A stretch of DNA of 64,000 bases from Candidatus Tectimicrobiota bacterium (GTDB taxonomy: Bacteria; JACPUC01). The position numbers were made by a program, and so were the translations under genes. Below the pieces are notes generated by a model, which was not told the origin of the DNA, ran no database searches, and saw nothing but the letters and a program-made list of their open reading frames with translations. Below are positions 27,667 through 37,749 of the stretch, piece by piece. Each line of letters opens with the position of its first letter. Position 1 is the first letter of the stretch. Location of the stretch: the NCBI GenBank assembly GCA_016192455.1, contig JACPUC010000006.1:1-64000 (forward strand). Reading direction: 5' to 3'.

Positions 27667-28686
27667 ATGCCTCGGCAACATACTCCGTACCTTAGCCTGT
27701 ATCGCGGACTTGCCTGGCTCACGCTGGTCCTGTTGCTGGCGATGGGGGATCGCCCGGCGGTGGCGCAGCCGTCCCAGGTGAACATGGGTATCCAGCCATT
27801 CATCTCGTACGTCCCCATTTTCGTAGCGCTCGACCAGGGGATGTTCGGGGAGCAGGGACTCGAGGTGAAAACCGAGACGTTCGCCTCGTCGCAGAAGATG
27901 ACCCCCGGGATTGCCTCGGGACAGCTCGATGTGGTTGGGGGAGCCCTGAGCGCCGCCTTCTATAACAGCATCGCCACGGGCCTGAAGATGAAGATCGTGG
28001 CCGACAAGGGACGCTGGTCAAAAGGTCACAGCATCACCCAGTTCCTCGTGCGCCGCGATCTCTACGAGAACGGGACGATCAAGTCAGTCGCCGACCTGAT
28101 TGGACGCAAGATTGTCAACAACTCCCCGTTGACCGGCCCCGTTTACTTACTCGCCATAGCACTCAAGCGTGCCGGCGGAGCGTACGATCATTCGAAAATC
28201 AGCTACATGGAGGTTCCCAAGATTTACCAGGGGTTGAAGAGCAAGGCGATCGAGGTGGGAACGTGCGTCGAACCATGGTGCTCACGGGCCGTGAGCGACG
28301 GCACGGCGGTCTCCCTGATAAAAGGAGAGGATTATCCTGAAACGCTGGACTTCCAGGTCGCCTACGTCATCTTTACCGACAAGTTCATCAGCGAGAAGCG
28401 CGAGACGGCGCAACGCTTCATGAACGCCTACGTGCGCGCGGTGCAGTTCTACCACGAGAAGGGCGAGCAAAGCGACCTCATCGCGCAGATCGTCAGCAAG
28501 CACACAAAGATTCCTCCTGCCATCGTCAAGGCCGCGGCGCCTACCGGCATCGCCCCGGATGCCATGCCGAATATCAAGAGCGTGGCCGATTTCCAGGATT
28601 GGCTCTACGAGCAAGGGTTCGTGAAGCAGAAGCTCGAGATCAATGGCCTCTGGGATCCGAGCTTCGTCAAGAACGCGACGAAGTAA
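27667..28686 (+). CDS. NMT1/TauA-type substrate-binding protein, 339 aa
   Basis: A periplasmic binding protein of the NMT1/TauA group. A signal peptide with core LAWLTLVLLLAMGD ends near VAQ at residue 36. The mature part starts with IQPFISYVPIFVALDQGMF, the typical first strand and helix, followed by GQLDVVGGALSAAFYNSIA. No cognate permease or ATPase gene is in the window. A clear paralogue is encoded at 31471-32499, and both share the FYHEKG stretch. A strong AGGGAGGG ribosome site precedes the ATG. The ligand is unknown; an aromatic or sulfonate-type carboxylate would fit the neighbouring enzymes. Confidence 0.85.
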   Translation: MPRQHTPYLSLYRGLAWLTLVLLLAMGDRPAVAQPSQVNMGIQPFISYVPIFVALDQGMFGEQGLEVKTETFASSQKMTPGIASGQLDVVGGALSAAFYNSIATGLKMKIVADKGRWSKGHSITQFLVRRDLYENGTIKSVADLIGRKIVNNSPLTGPVYLLAIALKRAGGAYDHSKISYMEVPKIYQGLKSKAIEVGTCVEPWCSRAVSDGTAVSLIKGEDYPETLDFQVAYVIFTDKFISEKRETAQRFMNAYVRAVQFYHEKGEQSDLIAQIVSKHTKIPPAIVKAAAPTGIAPDAMPNIKSVADFQDWLYEQGFVKQKLEINGLWDPSFVKNATK

Positions 28687-28821
28687 TCGCCCCGAGCGTG
28701 ATACCCCTTCGCTCGCTCGCCAGGCACTTCGTGTCTTGGTGTCAGCTCTGCTCCGCCCGCGGAGGTCAGTGCATCCCCGCCACGTGGCTCCTGTGCCGTT
28801 CAATGGAAGGAATGCGCAACG

Positions 28822-30270
28822 ATGGGCTACCACGACATCCGAGAGTTCATCAGCGTGCTCGAGGCCCATGGCAAGCTGCGGCATGTGAAGAAAGAGGTCG
28901 ATCCGAGCTGGGAGATCGCCGGCATGGCGCGCTGGGTGTACCAGGGCTTCCCCGAAGAGCGGCGCTTCGCGCTCGTGTTCGACAACGTGAAAGACTCGTC
29001 GATCCCTGTCGCCACCGCCCTCATCGGCGCCTCTCGCGAGGTGTATGCGCTGGCGCTGGGAACCACGCCGGAGAAGATCCATGAGGTGTGGCTGCAGGCG
29101 TTGCGACACACCATCCCCCCGCGCCTCGTGAGATCTGGCCCCTGCCAGGAGGTCGTCATTGGCCGAGAAAAGGTGGACCTCTCCGCCCTGCCGGTGCCGA
29201 CCTGGACGCCCGGCAAGGACATGCGACCCTGTATCACGGCCGTCGTCATCACCAAGAATCACGATACCGGCGTGCAGAATATGGGGACCTACCGCTGTCA
29301 GGTGCAGTCCAAGGACACCGTTACCTTGAACACGATGCCAGGCCGGCAAGCCTATCAGAACTACGAATCGTACGCTCGGCACGGCAAGCCGGCGCCGCTG
29401 GCCGTGGCCATCGCCTGCGAACCTGTCGTTCACCTGGCGACGTCCGCGGCGCTGCCGAAGGGGATCGACGAGCTCCACCTGGCTGGGGCGCTGAAAGGAG
29501 CCGCCGTCGCCACGGTGCGCGCCATGACGGTCGATCTCCAGGTTCCCGCCAACGCCGAAATCATAGTCGAGGGCGAGTTACAGCCGTCGAAGACCATGCA
29601 AGAAGACTCCTTCGGGGAGTTTGCCGGCTACATGGGGCCGGGTGGGCAGAAGCCGTTCTTCCAGGTGGCGAGCATGACGCATCGCTCGAACCCCATTTAT
29701 TATGGCTACATCAGCCAGTTCCCGCCGAGCGAGAGCACAATGATTCAGGGGAACGCCAACGAGTGCATGGTGCATAAGCTTCTGGTCGATGACTTTGGCG
29801 AGACGACCGTTGTCGATGTGGCGATCAACCAGACACATGGCGGCAACCTCGGCCATGCGGTGGTGCAGATGACGCCGATCTACCCGCAGCACGCGATGCA
29901 CGTAGGACGACTCGTGGCTGAACTCACCCGCTTCAAGATGATCACCATCGTCGATTGTGACATCGACATCCGTGACCGGCAGCATCTGGACTGGGCATGG
30001 AACTCGCGGGTCAATCCGGCCAGGGATACGCTGGTGATCGAGAAGGTGTTCGTGCCAAACGACCCCGCGGCGGACCGCGGCATCACCTCGAAGCTCATCA
30101 TCGACGCCACGCACAAGGGCACCTTCCCCGATCTCTCCCTGCCCGCGAAGGAGGTGATGCTGCGCGCCTATGAGAGCTGGCAGGAGGCCGATCTGCCGGC
30201 CTTCAATCTCCCCAGCCGCGTTGAACGCCTCCTCGACTTTCATGCGCAACGTATGCAGGGTCAAACGTGA
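28822..30270 (+). CDS. UbiD-family decarboxylase, 482 aa
   Basis: A prenylated-FMN-dependent decarboxylase or carboxylase of the UbiD/Fdc family, cytoplasmic. Family markers: DIREFISVLEAHGKLRHVKK at the start, NMGTYRCQV with the active-site Arg, and EDSFGEFAGYMG, in which Glu261 and Glu266 match the catalytic pair spaced by five. The metal and cofactor residues around Asn and His in QNMGTYR and VVDVAINQTHGG also look intact. Length is typical. No UbiX gene, which makes the cofactor, is in the window. It lies between a binding protein and the AhpD-like selenoprotein candidate, suggesting a role in aromatic or unsaturated acid metabolism. Confidence 0.9.
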   Translation: MGYHDIREFISVLEAHGKLRHVKKEVDPSWEIAGMARWVYQGFPEERRFALVFDNVKDSSIPVATALIGASREVYALALGTTPEKIHEVWLQALRHTIPPRLVRSGPCQEVVIGREKVDLSALPVPTWTPGKDMRPCITAVVITKNHDTGVQNMGTYRCQVQSKDTVTLNTMPGRQAYQNYESYARHGKPAPLAVAIACEPVVHLATSAALPKGIDELHLAGALKGAAVATVRAMTVDLQVPANAEIIVEGELQPSKTMQEDSFGEFAGYMGPGGQKPFFQVASMTHRSNPIYYGYISQFPPSESTMIQGNANECMVHKLLVDDFGETTVVDVAINQTHGGNLGHAVVQMTPIYPQHAMHVGRLVAELTRFKMITIVDCDIDIRDRQHLDWAWNSRVNPARDTLVIEKVFVPNDPAADRGITSKLIIDATHKGTFPDLSLPAKEVMLRAYESWQEADLPAFNLPSRVERLLDFHAQRMQGQT

Positions 30271-30404
30271 ACCAGCCGTTCGATTCACGGAGGACCGCCC
30301 GGCCCCCCCCTCCGGCGCGCCGGGGAGTCCGGCATCGCTGCCGGTCTTATGCTGAGCCTCTACGCTCGGAGCCAGGTGGCGAGAGCAGCAAGGGGAGGAT
30401 TGCC

Positions 30405-30998
30405 ATGGCCTACATCAGGGTCATTGATGAGCACGAGGCCAGCGGAGAGCTTGACCTCGTCTATCAGAAGTATCGGGACCAGTACGGCGTGGTGCCGGAA
30501 ATCCGCAAGGTCCTCTCCCTCAAGCCGGGCTTTGTCACGCTCTACGATGCCTGGGTGCACAGCATCACCTTCGGCGGCTCGCGCTTGGGCCGCTACCGGG
30601 AAGAGTTGATCGCCGTGCTCGGCTCCTCGCTCAATAAGAGCAGCCACTGAACGGTCGCCCACGGAGAGTTTCTCCGTCAGACCCTGGGAGGCGACCAGGA
30701 GCAGGTTCTACGCATCCACGCGGATTACCGTGCCGCGGGGCTGGCGCCGGCCGATGTGGCGATGCTTGATTTCGCGCAGAAGGTCCTGGTGGCATCTCAT
30801 ACGATCGAGGAGGAGGACGTCCGAGCGCTGCGCCAGCATGGCTTCACCGACGAGGAGATCCTTGATATCACCTTGATCGCCGCTCAGCGTGCCTTCATCA
30901 GCCGCGTGGCGAATGCGCTTGGCGTGCCCATCGAACCGCGGAATCAGCATCTGGACGAGGAGTTCCTCAAGGCACTGAAGGTTGGCAAGCCGTGGTAG
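30405..30998 (+). CDS. AhpD-like/carboxymuconolactone decarboxylase-family protein, candidate selenoprotein (SxxU), 197 aa
   Basis: The frame from the ATG at 30405 (AGGGGAGG just upstream) to the TAG at 30996-30998 is interrupted once, by TGA at 30648-30650, and both parts are in the same frame. Part one has RYREELIAVLGSSLNKSSH; part two begins TVAHGEFLRQTL and continues to LRQHGFTDEEILDI and SRVANALGVPIE. Peroxidase-related AhpD proteins have CxxC then two to three residues then His-Gly here, and the TGA sits exactly at the second Cys while the first is Ser. A SECIS-like hairpin follows. I read it as Sec in an SxxU redox site, probably a thiol- or peroxide-linked reductase. A Cys-to-stop mutation is the main alternative. 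Confidence 0.75.
30653..30696 (+). promoter_or_regulatory. Candidate bacterial SECIS element
   Basis: Just after the TGA, GGTCGCC (30653-30659) pairs perfectly with GGCGACC (30690-30696), and inside it ACGGAGA (30661-30667) pairs perfectly with TCTCCGT (30671-30677), leaving an apical loop GTT. The loop starts 17 bases after the TGA and its first base is G. As I recall, bacterial SECIS elements need a short stem, a small apical loop with G in the first two positions, and this kind of spacing. Confidence 0.65.
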
Positions 30999-31470
30999 GC
31001 GCCGAACATGCCGGTGGACCGGTTTCGCAGCGTCGTGCGAAGAGCGGCAGCCGGGAAGCGAGCCCCATGGCCTCTGGGGGTCTGCCGTCTGCGCGGAGGG
31101 GTGACGGGGTCAGAGCATAGGGCAGCGGCGCGACACGGGTTGGTCGCACCCGGCGGCTGGGATGGGGTCCGTCTGGCGCTTCAAGCGGTGTGCCGGCCCA
31201 TTCCGAGCAAGATGCCTTGACGCAGGAAGGTCCTTGGGGATAGGGTTCCGGATATGAAGACGGCTGCCTCGGTCAACGAGCGGTATCCGGAGGCGCACCG
31301 TTGTGGGGCGGGGGTCTTGCCTGGGGTGGCCTCGGGCTGACGAGCGAGGAGACCACCTCGGCGATGCAGCCGCTCGTTGGAGCGAGGAGAGATGTTACGT
31401 GGGACGGCGTGCACGAGCGGCAGGTGATCGTGTCGTGCCGAAGGGGTGGCGGAGAAGGGGGGATGGCACC
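30999..31470. other. Intergenic region before the second binding protein
   Basis: No gene is seen. TTGACG at 31217-31222 with TAGGGT at 31241-31246 (spacer 18) is a weak promoter candidate. The rest looks non-coding. Confidence 0.35.
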
Positions 31471-32499
31471 ATGAAAAGAAGGCCGGCAGGAGGGTTCGAG
31501 GGCTGGTGTCGCACGGCAGGAGTCGCCGCCGCCGTTGCGGTTCTTCTACTCCTTGGGAGCGCGAGGGGGAATGCCCAGCCTCTCGAGAAGGTGAAGATGG
31601 CGTACCAGCCGTTCATCTCCTATGCGCCGCTGTTCATCGCCATGGAGAACGGCTACTTCAAGGAACACGGGATCGACCTCGAGATCACCTTCCTGGACGG
31701 ACCGAGGGCGATGCTGCCAGCCTCGCGCGGCGATCTCGACGTGATCGGCGGCTCGATTGGCGTCGGGTTCTTCAACAGCGTGGCGCAAGGATTGGACTTC
31801 AAGGTCGTGGCCGACAAAGGGCAGATCCGTTATGGCTACGGCTACGTGCCGATCGTCATCCGCAAAGCTTTGTGGGAGAACGGCACGGTGCGACTCTACC
31901 GAGACCTGGCGAAGATACGCATTTCCAGCAACAGCCCGGGCAGCTTCGGCATGTACCAGTATGCTATGGCCTTGGAAGAGGCCGGCGTTCCGTACGAACA
32001 TGAGAAGCTGAAGTACCTGGATCCCCCCAAGTGCGTCAATGCGCTGACGACCGGAGCCATCGACGCCTGCTGGATGCCCGAGCCCTGGGCCACGCGAGCC
32101 GAGCGCCTCGGCGTGGGCAGGATTTTCGTCACCACGGATCAGCTCAACGCCATGAAAGGCTACCAGGTGGCGGTCGTCATTTACTCAGGCAAGTTCATTC
32201 GGGAACGCCGCAACCTTGCCCAGGAATGGATGAAAGCGTATATCCGCGGCGTCAGGTTTTACCACGAGAAGGGGCCGGTCAGCGATGCCGTCGTCTCGAT
32301 CCTCAACAAGTACACGAAAGTAGAACCCGATGTCATTCGCGCTGCCATCCCGGTCTACTTTGTGCCCGACGGTTCCGTGAACCTCGACAGTGTGAAGCGC
32401 TTTCAAGAGTGGTGCTTCCAACGCGGTTTTGTGAAGGAGAAAGTGGATTTAGATAAGGTGGTGGATCTCAGCTTCATTCGCGCCGCCATGCAACAGTAG
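31471..32499 (+). CDS. NMT1/TauA-type substrate-binding protein, 342 aa
   Basis: A paralogue of the protein at 27667-28686. A signal peptide with core AGVAAAVAVLLLLGSARG ends near NAQ. The mature start is MAYQPFISYAPLFIAMENGY, then GDLDVIGGSIGVGFFNSVAQ and the later FYHEKGPVSDAVVSILNKY. The ATG at 31471 follows an AGAAGGGGGGAT-like ribosome site; the open frame before it is noise. No transporter membrane subunits are present nearby. The next gene starts 17 bases later, so it is in an operon with the flavoprotein, ferredoxin and reductase, and its ligand is probably their substrate or a precursor. Confidence 0.85.
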   Translation: MKRRPAGGFEGWCRTAGVAAAVAVLLLLGSARGNAQPLEKVKMAYQPFISYAPLFIAMENGYFKEHGIDLEITFLDGPRAMLPASRGDLDVIGGSIGVGFFNSVAQGLDFKVVADKGQIRYGYGYVPIVIRKALWENGTVRLYRDLAKIRISSNSPGSFGMYQYAMALEEAGVPYEHEKLKYLDPPKCVNALTTGAIDACWMPEPWATRAERLGVGRIFVTTDQLNAMKGYQVAVVIYSGKFIRERRNLAQEWMKAYIRGVRFYHEKGPVSDAVVSILNKYTKVEPDVIRAAIPVYFVPDGSVNLDSVKRFQEWCFQRGFVKEKVDLDKVVDLSFIRAAMQQ

Positions 32500-32516
32500 G
32501 AAGGGAGGAACCAGCC

Positions 32517-34262
32517 GTGGCTCTCCGTGATCTAGCCGAAGTCTACGAGACGGACATCCTCGTCGTCGGGGGTGGTCTGGCGGGATCGTTCGCTGCCATC
32601 AAGGCCCGCCAGAACGGCGTCCAGAGGGTGGCGCTCGTCGACAAGTCGGTCCCCGGCAAGAGCGGCTGCAGCACCTTCGCCGCTGGGGTCATCGCGGCGC
32701 ATTTTCCGCATCAGGACAGCCTGCAGCAATGGATGGAAGAGCTGTGCGAGCTGGGCGGCTATCTGAACGATCAAGCCTGGCTCGAGATCGTCTTGACCGA
32801 AGTGTTTGGGTACGTGGAGGAGATGGCGGGCTGGGGGGTGAACTTCCTGCGTAAGGCCGATGGCGACTACGAGCGCATCGTCGGCCGCGGCGGCGGTCCC
32901 GGCCGAGGTCTGCGCAATATCATGTTCCACGGCCCGCAGCTCATGGAGCCTGTCGTCAAGCAGCTCCGTCTCCTCGGGGTGACGCGCTACGATCGCACCA
33001 TGGTGACCGACCTCCTCGTCAAGGACGGCCGCGTGCTCGGCGTCGGCGGCTTCAACGTCCTCGATGGCGGCTACCGCATCATCAAGAGCCGGGCGACCAT
33101 CCTCAGCGCCGGCGGCACGTACTCGAAAGGCTCCTTCGTCTCCCATAAGAACCTCAGCGGCGATGCCCACGCCATGTGCGTGCGGGCCGGCGTGGAGCTG
33201 ATGAACTTCGACTTCACCAGCCGCAACCAGTCCTGCACCGAGTTCGATACCGAGGGGATGAACATGTTCGTGGCGCTCGGGGGCAGATTCATCAATGCCC
33301 GCGGCGAGGAGTTCATGCCCGAGTACGACCCGGTCCTCGGCAACCGTACCACCAAGCCGGTGATGGCGGCGGCCACGGCGCTCGAGGTGAAGGCAGGACG
33401 AGGCCCGATCTACATGGACATGACCCACTTCACGCCCGACAAAGTGCAGAAGCTGCGCCAGGTGCTGCCGCTCGCGTCCCTGATCCTGCAGCGCGCCGGC
33501 GTCATGGTGGGCGACCGCATCAACCGCAAGCTGGCGTGGGGACCAGCGGGGGTCGGCACCGTCGCCTTCGGCGGCGGCGCGCGCATCACCACGCGCTGCG
33601 AGACCTCCATGCCCGGACTGTACGCGGCGGGCGATTCCGCGGCGCGGCATGGCGCGGGCCACAATGAGATGGGGGCGGGGGCCCTCACGTGGGCTATCGT
33701 CAGCGGCGCGCGGGCCGGCCGCTGCGCCGCCGAGGATTACTCCCAGTTCGACCTCGAAGATGCCGACGTGGCCTTCGTGGAGGAGCGGCGCGAGGCGGTC
33801 CTCAAGCCACTGCGGCGCAAGACCGGCGTGGAGCCCGAGCAGACGATCCTCGCCATCCAGGAGGCCGTGCATCCCTGGAACGTGCTCGAGCTGCGCCACG
33901 AGAAGCGCCTGCAACGCGCCCTCGACAGGATCCTGGAGATCAAGGAGCTGCATCTTCCGCGGCTGTGCGCCTACGATCCGCACTACCTCATCCTGGCCCA
34001 CGAGGCCGAAAGCCTTGCCATCACCATGGAGCTCATCCTGCGGGCCGGCCTGGAGCGCAAGGAGAGCCGCTGCAATCTGCGCGAGGACTACCCGGAGATC
34101 GATAACATCAACTGGCTGAAGTGGATCATCCTGCGGCCCGAAGGGAAAAGCTTCGCCTTCCGCACCATGGAGATCCCCGAGGGACCGGTCAAGTTCAAAC
34201 GCGTGAAACGCCTGCACCCGCTGTTTACCGCGGCCGGCTTGACCGAAGTAGGAGCGAGGTAA
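32517..34262 (+). CDS. FAD-dependent fumarate reductase/AprA-like flavoprotein, 581 aa
   Basis: A flavoprotein of the succinate dehydrogenase/fumarate reductase superfamily. The FAD-binding start is TDILVVGGGLAGSFAAIKAR, the family stretch GKSGCSTFAAGVIAA follows, and the FAD-binding end is MPGLYAAGDSAARHGAGHNE. With the small dicluster ferredoxin encoded two bases later it resembles the AprA/AprB arrangement, though it is shorter than typical AprA. Start is GTG at 32517 behind GGGAGG. The real reaction is unknown: it could oxidise or reduce a C-C, C-S or S-O bond of the compound bound by the preceding protein. Cytoplasmic; no Tat signal. Confidence 0.83.
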   Translation: MALRDLAEVYETDILVVGGGLAGSFAAIKARQNGVQRVALVDKSVPGKSGCSTFAAGVIAAHFPHQDSLQQWMEELCELGGYLNDQAWLEIVLTEVFGYVEEMAGWGVNFLRKADGDYERIVGRGGGPGRGLRNIMFHGPQLMEPVVKQLRLLGVTRYDRTMVTDLLVKDGRVLGVGGFNVLDGGYRIIKSRATILSAGGTYSKGSFVSHKNLSGDAHAMCVRAGVELMNFDFTSRNQSCTEFDTEGMNMFVALGGRFINARGEEFMPEYDPVLGNRTTKPVMAAATALEVKAGRGPIYMDMTHFTPDKVQKLRQVLPLASLILQRAGVMVGDRINRKLAWGPAGVGTVAFGGGARITTRCETSMPGLYAAGDSAARHGAGHNEMGAGALTWAIVSGARAGRCAAEDYSQFDLEDADVAFVEERREAVLKPLRRKTGVEPEQTILAIQEAVHPWNVLELRHEKRLQRALDRILEIKELHLPRLCAYDPHYLILAHEAESLAITMELILRAGLERKESRCNLREDYPEIDNINWLKWIILRPEGKSFAFRTMEIPEGPVKFKRVKRLHPLFTAAGLTEVGAR

Positions 34263-34264
34263 CC

Positions 34265-34483
34265 ATGGGTATCCGCTTGATCCAGGAAGAGCTGTGCACG
34301 GGCTGCGGGGTGTGCGTCATCTCCTGCCCGATGGATGTCATCAAGTTGGATGAGGAACGCCGCAAGGCCATCGTCCAGTACATCCGCGATTGCCAATGCT
34401 GCTACATGTGCGAGCGCGACTGCCCCGAAGACATCATCTACGTCACGCCGGATCGCGAACGGCGTATCCCTCTTGCCTGGTAG
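34265..34483 (+). CDS. Dicluster [4Fe-4S] ferredoxin (AprB-like), 72 aa
   Basis: Two cluster motifs are visible: CTGCGVCVISCP near residue 11 and, near residue 40, CxxCxxCxxxCP within CQCCYMCERDCP. They should hold two [4Fe-4S] clusters. It starts two bases after the flavoprotein stop, with GAGG before the ATG, and ends 14 bases before the FAD reductase. It very probably carries electrons between those two proteins. An extra Cys in the second motif could be structural. Confidence 0.88.
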   Translation: MGIRLIQEELCTGCGVCVISCPMDVIKLDEERRKAIVQYIRDCQCCYMCERDCPEDIIYVTPDRERRIPLAW

Positions 34484-34497
34484 GAGGCGACCAGCCA

Positions 34498-35730
34498 ATG
34501 GCCGAGCGAGCTGCACGCTACGTCATCATCGGGAATGGCATCGCCGGGTCGGTGGCGGCCCGCCGCTTGCGGGAGTTTGACCGCGCGTGCCGCGTCAGCC
34601 TGCTGACGGATGAGCCGTATCCGCTCTACAACCGCGTCCGGCTGCCGCACTACCTGAAGGGGATGATCAGCCGGGAAGAGGTGTTCATGCGCTCGGCGGA
34701 AGAGGAGAAGGCTCGCGGCATCGACTTCCTCGCCGAGACCACGGTCAGTGCCGTGCACGCGCAGGAGAAATTCGTAGAGTGCGCGGACGGTCGACGGTTG
34801 CCGTTCGACCGCTTGCTCATTGCCACCGGCGGCAGGCCGAGGCGGCTGTCGGTCCCCGGCGCCCAGGGGCCGGGAGTCTTCACCTACCAGTACCTCGACG
34901 ATGTGAACGCCATGCGCGAGCTGCTGCCGAACGCCAGGCGCGCCATGGTTGTCGGTGGGTCGCTCATCGGCTACGAACTGGTGGCGGCGTTTCGCGAATG
35001 GAACCTGGAGACCACCTGGCTCATTCGTGGTCCGCACTTCATGCACCGGCAAATCGACGCCGAAGCGGGAGCCCTCGTCTCCCGGATCGCTCAACGCCAC
35101 GGCGTCAAGGTCATCTACGGCGAAGAGGTGGCGGAGATGCAGCGCGCGAACGGCTCGGTCTCCGAGGCGCGCACCACCGGCGGGCGCACCATCTCCTGCG
35201 ATCTTGTCGGCGTTGCCGTCGGCTTGAAGAAGAACATCGACTTCCTCCAAGGGTCGACGATTGCGCTCAATGAAGGGGTGCTGACGGACGAGCACCTCGT
35301 CACCTCGCACCCGGACGTCTACGCCGCTGGCGATGTGGCGGAGTTCAACGATCTCGTGGTTGGCCAGCGCAGTCTCCTCGGCACCTGGCACAACGCCTCG
35401 CTGCAGGGCGAGCTTGTGGCGAAGAACATGCTCGGCGCACAACTCGTGTTCAAGGCCGTGCCGATCTACTCCAACCCCCTGTTCGACTCGCGGATCAAGG
35501 TTATCGGCATCACCTCGCAGAGCGATCGCTCGCTGGAAAGCCTGGTGAAGAACGAACCGGACCAGGGGCGGTACCTGCGCCTCTTCTTCCGCGGCGCTCA
35601 GCTTGTGGGCGCGGTCATCATCGGCAAGATCGACTATCATCTCCGCGTCGCCCTCATGAAGTACATGCTGACCGGCGAGCACGTTCCCAACAAGCAGCAC
35701 CTGATCGCAACCCAATCGCATACCGTGTAG
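34498..35730 (+). CDS. FAD-dependent pyridine-nucleotide oxidoreductase, 410 aa
   Basis: A class I pyridine nucleotide-disulfide-type reductase, like rubredoxin reductase or the NirB N-terminal part. The FAD motif is YVIIGNGIAGSVAARRLRE, the NAD motif MVVGGSLIGYELVAAF, and the FAD end VYAAGDVAEF. No redox-active CxxC is present, so it is not a disulfide reductase. The ATG at 34498 follows TAGGAGG. It closes the unit of binding protein, flavoprotein and ferredoxin, and probably passes electrons between NAD(P)H and the ferredoxin. Confidence 0.86.
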   Translation: MAERAARYVIIGNGIAGSVAARRLREFDRACRVSLLTDEPYPLYNRVRLPHYLKGMISREEVFMRSAEEEKARGIDFLAETTVSAVHAQEKFVECADGRRLPFDRLLIATGGRPRRLSVPGAQGPGVFTYQYLDDVNAMRELLPNARRAMVVGGSLIGYELVAAFREWNLETTWLIRGPHFMHRQIDAEAGALVSRIAQRHGVKVIYGEEVAEMQRANGSVSEARTTGGRTISCDLVGVAVGLKKNIDFLQGSTIALNEGVLTDEHLVTSHPDVYAAGDVAEFNDLVVGQRSLLGTWHNASLQGELVAKNMLGAQLVFKAVPIYSNPLFDSRIKVIGITSQSDRSLESLVKNEPDQGRYLRLFFRGAQLVGAVIIGKIDYHLRVALMKYMLTGEHVPNKQHLIATQSHTV

Positions 35731-35796
35731 CGCCGCGCGCCGCCGAAGCCCGCGCAGGCGTCGCGACATGCTGCCAAACCATGGAGACGACACGGG

Positions 35797-36969
35797 ATGC
35801 ACAGAGAGGCGCGGAAAGAAACCGGGTTAACGTTCTACCGCAGGGATCGCGCCTATCCAGGCTATACACTCTATGCACCGCTGGTAGGCCAGGGCGACGT
35901 CTACCTCATTGACATGCTTGGCAACATCGTCAAGCGCTGGAAGCTGTCCGAACCACCTGGCAACTATGGGTTCCTGCTCCGAAACGGCAACCTCCTCTAT
36001 TCCGGCCGCACGCCGACTGGACAGGTTCTCCTTGGCGGCAAAGGGGGTGTTCTCTACGAAGTCAATTGGCAGGGTGACATTGTCTGGGACTACCGCAATG
36101 ATCTCATGCACCACGATTTCGACCGCCTGCCCAATGGCAATACCATGGTGCTCGTTTGGGAATCCGTGCCGGCAGAGCTGTACGAAAGCATCAAAGGAGG
36201 CGTCCCGGGCACCGAGCAGAATGGTGGTATCTGGGGTGATGCAATCCTTGAGGTTACGCCCGCGGGACGCGTGGTCTGGGAGTGGCACGGATATGAGCAC
36301 CTGGATGGCGCCGAAGACAGCATCTGTCCACTCTGTCCGCGAAACCAATGGACCCATGCCAATGCCATCGAGTATGTGGAGTTGCCCGGCGGTAAACCAG
36401 CGATCTTGATCAGTTTCCGTTTCCAGAACACCCTTGCCCTGATCGACCGGAGTACCGGCGACTGGATCTGGAAGTGGGGACGCGATGATCTCGGCCACCA
36501 GCACGATCCGACGATGCTCGACAGTGGCAATATCTTGGTGTTCGATAATGGTCTGCACTACCTGGTCAACAAGAAACATATGCAGCGGCAGATCCTGGCG
36601 CGAGGTACGCCGCGCTCGCGCCTTGTGGAGGTGAATCCTACAACGAACGACATCTGTTGGGAGTATATGGGTAACCCACGTTATTCATTCTTAAGTGCCT
36701 TCCTTAGTGGAGCTCAACGCCTACCGAACGGCAACACGTTGGCCTGCGAGGGCATCACGGGTCGATTCTTTGAAGTGTCCCAGGATGGTGAGGTGGTGTG
36801 GGAATACATCGTCCCATTCTACGGCGATTTTCGTGACTTCAAAAACGTGAATATGTGCTTTCGGTGCTATCGTTACGGTGCGGACTTTCCTGGCTTCTTG
36901 GGAAAAGATCTGGATGCAGAGAGCTACAAGTGGTTAAATCACATCGTTCGAACTACTGCTGTTAGCTAA
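35797..36969 (+). CDS. Arylsulfotransferase (ASST)-like beta-propeller protein, 390 aa
   Basis: A repeat protein of the arylsulfotransferase group. It shows repeated strands with Trp and Asn-Gly-Asn turns (LLRNGNLLYSG, RLPNGNTMVL, RLPNGNTLAC). His residues matching the ASST active site occur in HHDFDRLPNGN, WTHANAIEY and GHQHDPTM. True ASST is periplasmic, but no signal peptide is visible here. Base composition is noticeably lower in G+C than the neighbours, and codons ending in A/T are common, which hints at transfer. It starts 66 bases after the reductase. Whether it transfers sulfate or only shares the fold cannot be told. Confidence 0.72.
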   Translation: MHREARKETGLTFYRRDRAYPGYTLYAPLVGQGDVYLIDMLGNIVKRWKLSEPPGNYGFLLRNGNLLYSGRTPTGQVLLGGKGGVLYEVNWQGDIVWDYRNDLMHHDFDRLPNGNTMVLVWESVPAELYESIKGGVPGTEQNGGIWGDAILEVTPAGRVVWEWHGYEHLDGAEDSICPLCPRNQWTHANAIEYVELPGGKPAILISFRFQNTLALIDRSTGDWIWKWGRDDLGHQHDPTMLDSGNILVFDNGLHYLVNKKHMQRQILARGTPRSRLVEVNPTTNDICWEYMGNPRYSFLSAFLSGAQRLPNGNTLACEGITGRFFEVSQDGEVVWEYIVPFYGDFRDFKNVNMCFRCYRYGADFPGFLGKDLDAESYKWLNHIVRTTAVS

Positions 36970-37749
36970 AAAGTGTCCAAGGGCCCAACTTTTGCCGCCA
37001 ATCCAGTGTCCGAGCAATTACCACCTCTTCATGCAAGGCCGAGAGGTAACGCGCATTGGTGGCAACGTGCTTGCCGGGGTGGTCGAAGCCAAAACGGTGG
37101 GCCTCCGTCCGTAACCCGGCTTTTCCAGCCGGGGGTGCTGCGGCGCCACGCCCTCAGCCGGCGGAGCGCCCAGCTCATCGGCGTGCAGCCCAGGCAGCGC
37201 GAGGGGAGAGAGGTATTCCAGGCCGCTCTGCGCGACAGCTTCCACCTGCCGCAGCGCCTTGAGCATTCTCTCGGAGAGCGCAACTGGAAGATGCCCAAGC
37301 GCGGGGCTGCCTCGACTCCCGCAACAGCTCGATCCTGGCGCACCGGCTGCGGCCGTGCGCGGCGGCGGAGTACGAGCATCTGCGCGGCGAGGTCTGGAAG
37401 CTGGCGCGCGTCGTCATCCCCGACGCGCCTGAGCGCGCGCGGTCCTTGCAGTTTCCCTGGCTGGCGGGAGGATGCGGAGGCAGTGAAGGGGTATGATGTT
37501 GCAAACCCGACGGTTCATGCCCGAAGGTGGAAACGATGGGAGCATGCCGTTAACGTTGGCGGCTACGTGACAAGCCAGGAGAACAGACGGTTGCGCTCGA
37601 GCGGCTGACTTACTTGGCTACTGACCGTCTTGTTCGAATATCGAGAGTTGAACCTCTTTTGGTGAAGTTGCTGGCTCATAGCAAAGGGGCTTTTTGGTCA
37701 CGTCTCTGGCTGGTACGAATTAGCAATCTCCTAGAAGTGATTCAGCGTT
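36970..37749. other. Decayed convergent region
   Basis: No intact gene. It includes a hairpin CCCGGCT (37115-37121) with AGCCGGG (37127-37133), the possible CARF-type fragment at 37200-37490, and a lower-GC part from 37600 to 37740 with an open but start-less frame (LTYLATDRLVRISRVEPLL) that I cannot assign. Confidence 0.4.
37200..37490 (+). pseudogene. Possible remnant of a CRISPR-associated CARF-type protein (TIGR02710-like)
   Basis: One frame reads FHLPQRLEHSLGERNWK; another then reads DSRNSSILAHRLRPCAAAEY and EVWKLARVVIPDAPERARSL. The RNxSILAH stretch recalls the C-terminal HEPN-like part of TIGR02710-type proteins. It is short, frame-shifted and without a start. This assignment is weak. 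Confidence 0.25.

Follow-up and report, generated by a model that had tools for sequence, protein, structure and literature searches.

The seemingly broken gene at positions 30405-30998 of the window, the 64,000-nucleotide stretch of DNA analysed here, is almost certainly intact, its in-frame UGA being read as selenocysteine. The explanation that we favour with high confidence as the best overall is that it encodes a functional TIGR01926 selenoprotein in which Sec82 would carry out one-selenol chemistry. The selenocysteine machinery of the genome, the TGA of the homologues and the conserved stem together identify the gene as that of a selenoprotein, not one with a nonsense mutation. Its features are:

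30405..30998, + strand: AhpD-like selenoprotein coding sequence, 197 residues with TGA read as Sec (TIGR01926 match)
30639..30641, + strand: codon 79, AGC (Ser), first residue of the motif, Cys in the family (sequence and alignment)
30648..30650, + strand: in-frame TGA, codon 82, proposed Sec at the nucleophile position of SxxU (homologue alignment)
30653..30696, + strand: whole predicted two-stem structure, outer stem GGUCGCC/GGCGACC (folding)
30661..30677, + strand: apical hairpin ACGGAGA-GUU-UCUCCGU (folding), its stem kept in Sec homologues and not in Cys homologues

The frame runs from the ATG at 30405, just downstream of the ribosome-binding-like sequence GGGGAGGA, to the TAG at 30996-30998, and the TGA is its sole in-frame stop. 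The initial annotation had described one frame split by this single TGA and had expected gene calling to divide it; standard calling does indeed give two ORFs, 30267-30650 (127 aa) and 30756-30998 (80 aa). Its claim that the joined halves form one AhpD/peroxidase-related domain also holds. In a search of NCBIfam profiles, the 197-residue protein matches TIGR01926 over residues 3-178 with 108.5 bits (cut-off 81.8 bits), and it matches Pfam CMD as well. The AlphaFold model of the joined protein is confident and helical (pLDDT 94.6), and a fold search with this model places PDB 2prr, 3c1l, 2pfx and 6k40, the peroxidase-related group, closest; model and search thus agree on the all-helical AhpD/CMD fold. 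Identity to homologues does not fall after the TGA, being equal to or higher than before it. Codon preference continues past the TGA, an observation of little weight since the codon table took in one neighbouring gene out of frame.

Selenocysteine insertion in bacteria calls for selA, selB, selC and selD, the genes that the initial annotation had named as a check on its reading, and all four are present in the source genome (G000; 31 contigs, 88% complete). In profile searches selA (596 bits), selB (366 bits) and selD (389 bits) each score above cut-off, selA adjoins selB, and selC is found as a tRNA-Sec with anticodon UCA (75.5 bits). SelD as a selenoprotein is a known arrangement, and the SelD of this genome (G000:C3:190907-191827) has an in-frame TGA, in the sequence AGUAAK, at what we take to be the catalytic place of the enzyme; the genome must therefore decode UGA to make its own machinery. 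There are in all four AhpD-like genes with TGA at the same codon: the one described here and paralogues on contigs C22 (CRYU), C23 (CTFU) and C3 (CAYU). The C23 paralogue (L052, G000:C23:164065-165258) appears to be a double-domain AhpD-like protein, in which domain 1 has the CTFU site with its TGA and domain 2 has lost the site (CPSL). A protein from another genome, L131, resembles it, with CSYU followed by APYF.

Across 573 genome searches the AhpD-like family proves widespread. About 150 homologues have TGA where they align with codon 82 and the others have Cys, so that both kinds of homologue proposed as a check exist, and in the alignment the TGA falls on the closing residue of the CxxC/CxxU motif, the place of the second Cys, as had been claimed. 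The redox-active Cys position therefore carries an in-frame UGA, as in bacterial selenoproteins. Glu67, Sec/Cys82 and His86 are invariant across 43 aligned sequences, which provides the Glu and His of a proton relay. If the gene were of the Cys type and held only a nonsense mutation or a sequencing error, selenocysteine would play no part and a single change from TGC or TGT to TGA would suffice; however, the TGA coincides exactly with the Sec codon of the homologues, the machinery is present and the hairpin is conserved, and we regard such an origin as extremely improbable.

The two-stem hairpin with a GTT loop, noted in the initial annotation, stands up to closer analysis. It starts 10 nt past the TGA, with 17 nt from the TGA to the loop G, and has an apical and an outer stem of 7 bp each; it is thus a SECIS-like hairpin just 3′ of the UGA whose small apical loop contains a G. 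The two-stem fold has an energy of -22.2 kcal/mol (z -2.7), and none of 200 shuffles is as stable. The 7-bp GUU-loop hairpin has the same location as in other Sec homologues. Across this and neighbouring genes, 55 of 1832 codon sites fold as well and 28 of the 1832 also match the G-loop hairpin, while synonymous recodings equal both measures in 0.46% of cases. By itself the hairpin is modest evidence in GC-rich DNA; it is conservation across the family that makes the case convincing. The 134 distinct Sec homologues, a set from which this gene was left out, form a mean of 4.91 pairs out of seven as against 3.96 expected from synonymous codons, with a z of 11.7 that is overstated because related sequences are treated as independent. 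All seven pairs are present in 52 of them. The 30 Cys homologues, in contrast, show no stem excess (z -1.2) and none has all seven pairs. This difference and the exchange at pair 14-24, which is G-C in 44 and C-G in 43 Sec homologues, are the sturdier support. A search of Rfam found no SECIS family match.

The first residue of the motif sets the protein apart. Among 196 aligned domains there are 153 CxxU, 23 CxxC, 4 SxxC, 3 NxxC and 2 SxxU sites; SxxU was described from the outset as an unusual variant, and only this gene and L125 have it among the 155 sampled Sec homologues, the other 153 being CxxU. The site therefore departs from the CxxC/CxxU of TIGR01926 in that the nucleophile position is retained and the partner Cys is replaced by Ser. 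We place the protein in TIGR01926 by descent, with an altered site and not as a typical CxxU member, because the same variation occurs in other homologues (the four SxxC and the one other SxxU). The two SxxU genes are far apart in the tree. L125 has its own 8-bp G-loop hairpin and its tree neighbour is CxxU, so its change from Cys to Ser is most simply a separate one. Our gene belongs to a clade of five, together with the C22 and C23 paralogues, L131 (CxxU) and L014 (SxxC), of which L014, with S-x-H-C, shares the His that precedes the nucleophile. This clade persists when the motif columns are removed (93/95), whereas its inner order does not: this gene (L013) and L014 are sisters in the full tree (98/88), a grouping that is lost without those columns, and we accordingly make no claim that Ser79 was inherited from an ancestor common to both. 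Elsewhere, L209 (G320:C109), L086, L090 and L139 are NxxC and SxxC AhpD-like proteins in which the partner Cys has also gone, several of them in tandem.

Ser79 and His81 both differ from most of the family, and this rarity bears on whether the gene might have become a pseudogene recently, having started as a CxxU selenoprotein, lost the resolving Cys and begun to decay, with the TGA and hairpin as relics. Relaxed selection could produce both residues, and among the genomes searched, in which the phylum is represented by this genome alone, we found no close orthologue that would show constraint on Ser79 or the TGA; a single-protein search of genome contigs gave one distant Cys relative only. 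Against this, the 197 codons are open, Glu67 and His86 are retained, both stems are intact, and Ser recurs at this position in the SxxU protein L125 as well as in SxxC proteins; one of these, the clade relative L014, shares the His too. Decay is thus very unlikely, and we return to the reading of the gene as a functional selenoprotein.

AhpD-like CxxU selenoproteins have been established predictions since 2005 (Zhang and Gladyshev, PMC1088965, 2005; Zhang and Gladyshev, PMC2398784, 2008) and are tabulated in PMC13188914. The gene shares with them its family (TIGR01926/COG2128), the Sec position and a SECIS hairpin directly downstream; all those in the three sources are CxxU, whereas here Ser replaces the first Cys. 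Since the family was already known, only this Ser variant adds something, and we found no SxxU for AhpD-like proteins in the selenoprotein reviews consulted. In the literature C/SxxU describes a mercuric transport protein, SxxU also appears in a paper on mammalian SelO, and a T/SxxU/C site is known in peroxiredoxins (PMC1794560), where Ser/Thr likewise precedes the selenol or thiol by three residues, although the fold is unrelated and the likeness an analogy only. PDB 2prr, 2pfx, 3c1l and 6k40 share the fold over nearly the full length, with identities of about 30%; 2pfx and 2prr have a Cys aligned with codon 82, and this structure group is without selenium. With respect to Mycobacterium tuberculosis AhpD (1gu9/1knc; Cys130/Cys133), Sec82 occupies the place of the second Cys, although that enzyme has both Cys residues and its identity to our protein is very low (13-15%). 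The second Cys, Cys133, attacks the partner AhpC (PMC6626918).

We suggest that SelB and tRNA-Sec would read the UGA of codon 82 as Sec, directed by the hairpin just 3′ of it, as the sequence features indicate. Sec82, with the invariant Glu67 and His86, would make up an AhpD-type active site in which, by analogy with Cys133, it would be the nucleophile. From what is known of the family, a hydroperoxide or a similar oxidised compound is the probable substrate that the selenol reduces. In support of a peroxide role for the family, loss of the AhpD-like protein renders a Deinococcus radiodurans mutant more sensitive to H2O2 (PMC8945050). The 197 residues include no Cys, so Sec is the sole thiol or selenol of the protein, and with Cys79 missing the oxidised selenium would have to be reduced by an outside thiol, either a small thiol or a partner protein, and not through an internal Se-S bond.

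The annotated neighbours bear on substrate and electron donor:

28822..30270, + strand: UbiD-family decarboxylase
31303..32499, + strand: NMT1/SsuA-type ABC transporter substrate-binding protein, its real start possibly further in
32517..34262, + strand: fumarate reductase/succinate dehydrogenase-type (FrdA-like) flavoprotein
34390..35730, + strand: pyridine nucleotide-disulphide oxidoreductase, PadH-like

Another NMT1-type binding protein and an arylsulfotransferase-like protein also lie on the same strand. The PadH-like reductase is a possible electron donor. The C23 paralogue is near a UbiD decarboxylase, an NMT1-type binding protein and an ABC ATPase. That UbiD and an NMT1-type ABC binding protein stand beside two Sec AhpD-like genes (interval 27667-37608; L213) may reflect a shared pathway; involvement in the catabolism of aromatic or other carboxylic acids is no more than a lead.

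The UbiD and NMT1-type binding proteins that adjoin this gene as well as the C23 paralogue would fit a genuine selenoprotein with chemistry other than peroxide reduction, such as reductive dehalogenation or another aromatic-acid step, and the fold search also matches the debrominase Bmp8 (6ohi, 6ohj). However, identity to Bmp8 is only 17%, the closest structures are those of the peroxidase-related group and the neighbourhood is no more than suggestive. We consider such chemistry unlikely; it competes with the functional part of our proposal only and leaves the selenoprotein assignment untouched. Returning to one-selenol catalysis, we raise as a tentative, somewhat doubtful generalisation that SxxU and SxxC sites represent a recurrent one-selenol or one-thiol form of AhpD-like catalysis, which would have shed the internal resolving Cys, would need an outside thiol or the neighbouring flavoprotein reductase, and would serve a UbiD-linked acid pathway.

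Ordinary gene calling splits this selenoprotein gene in the sole genome of its phylum among those searched. The conserved SECIS, with its compensatory changes, is a usable signature for finding further members. SxxU adds an active-site type to the AhpD-like family, and the lack of Cys makes this protein well suited to the question of how a single selenol is regenerated within the AhpD fold.
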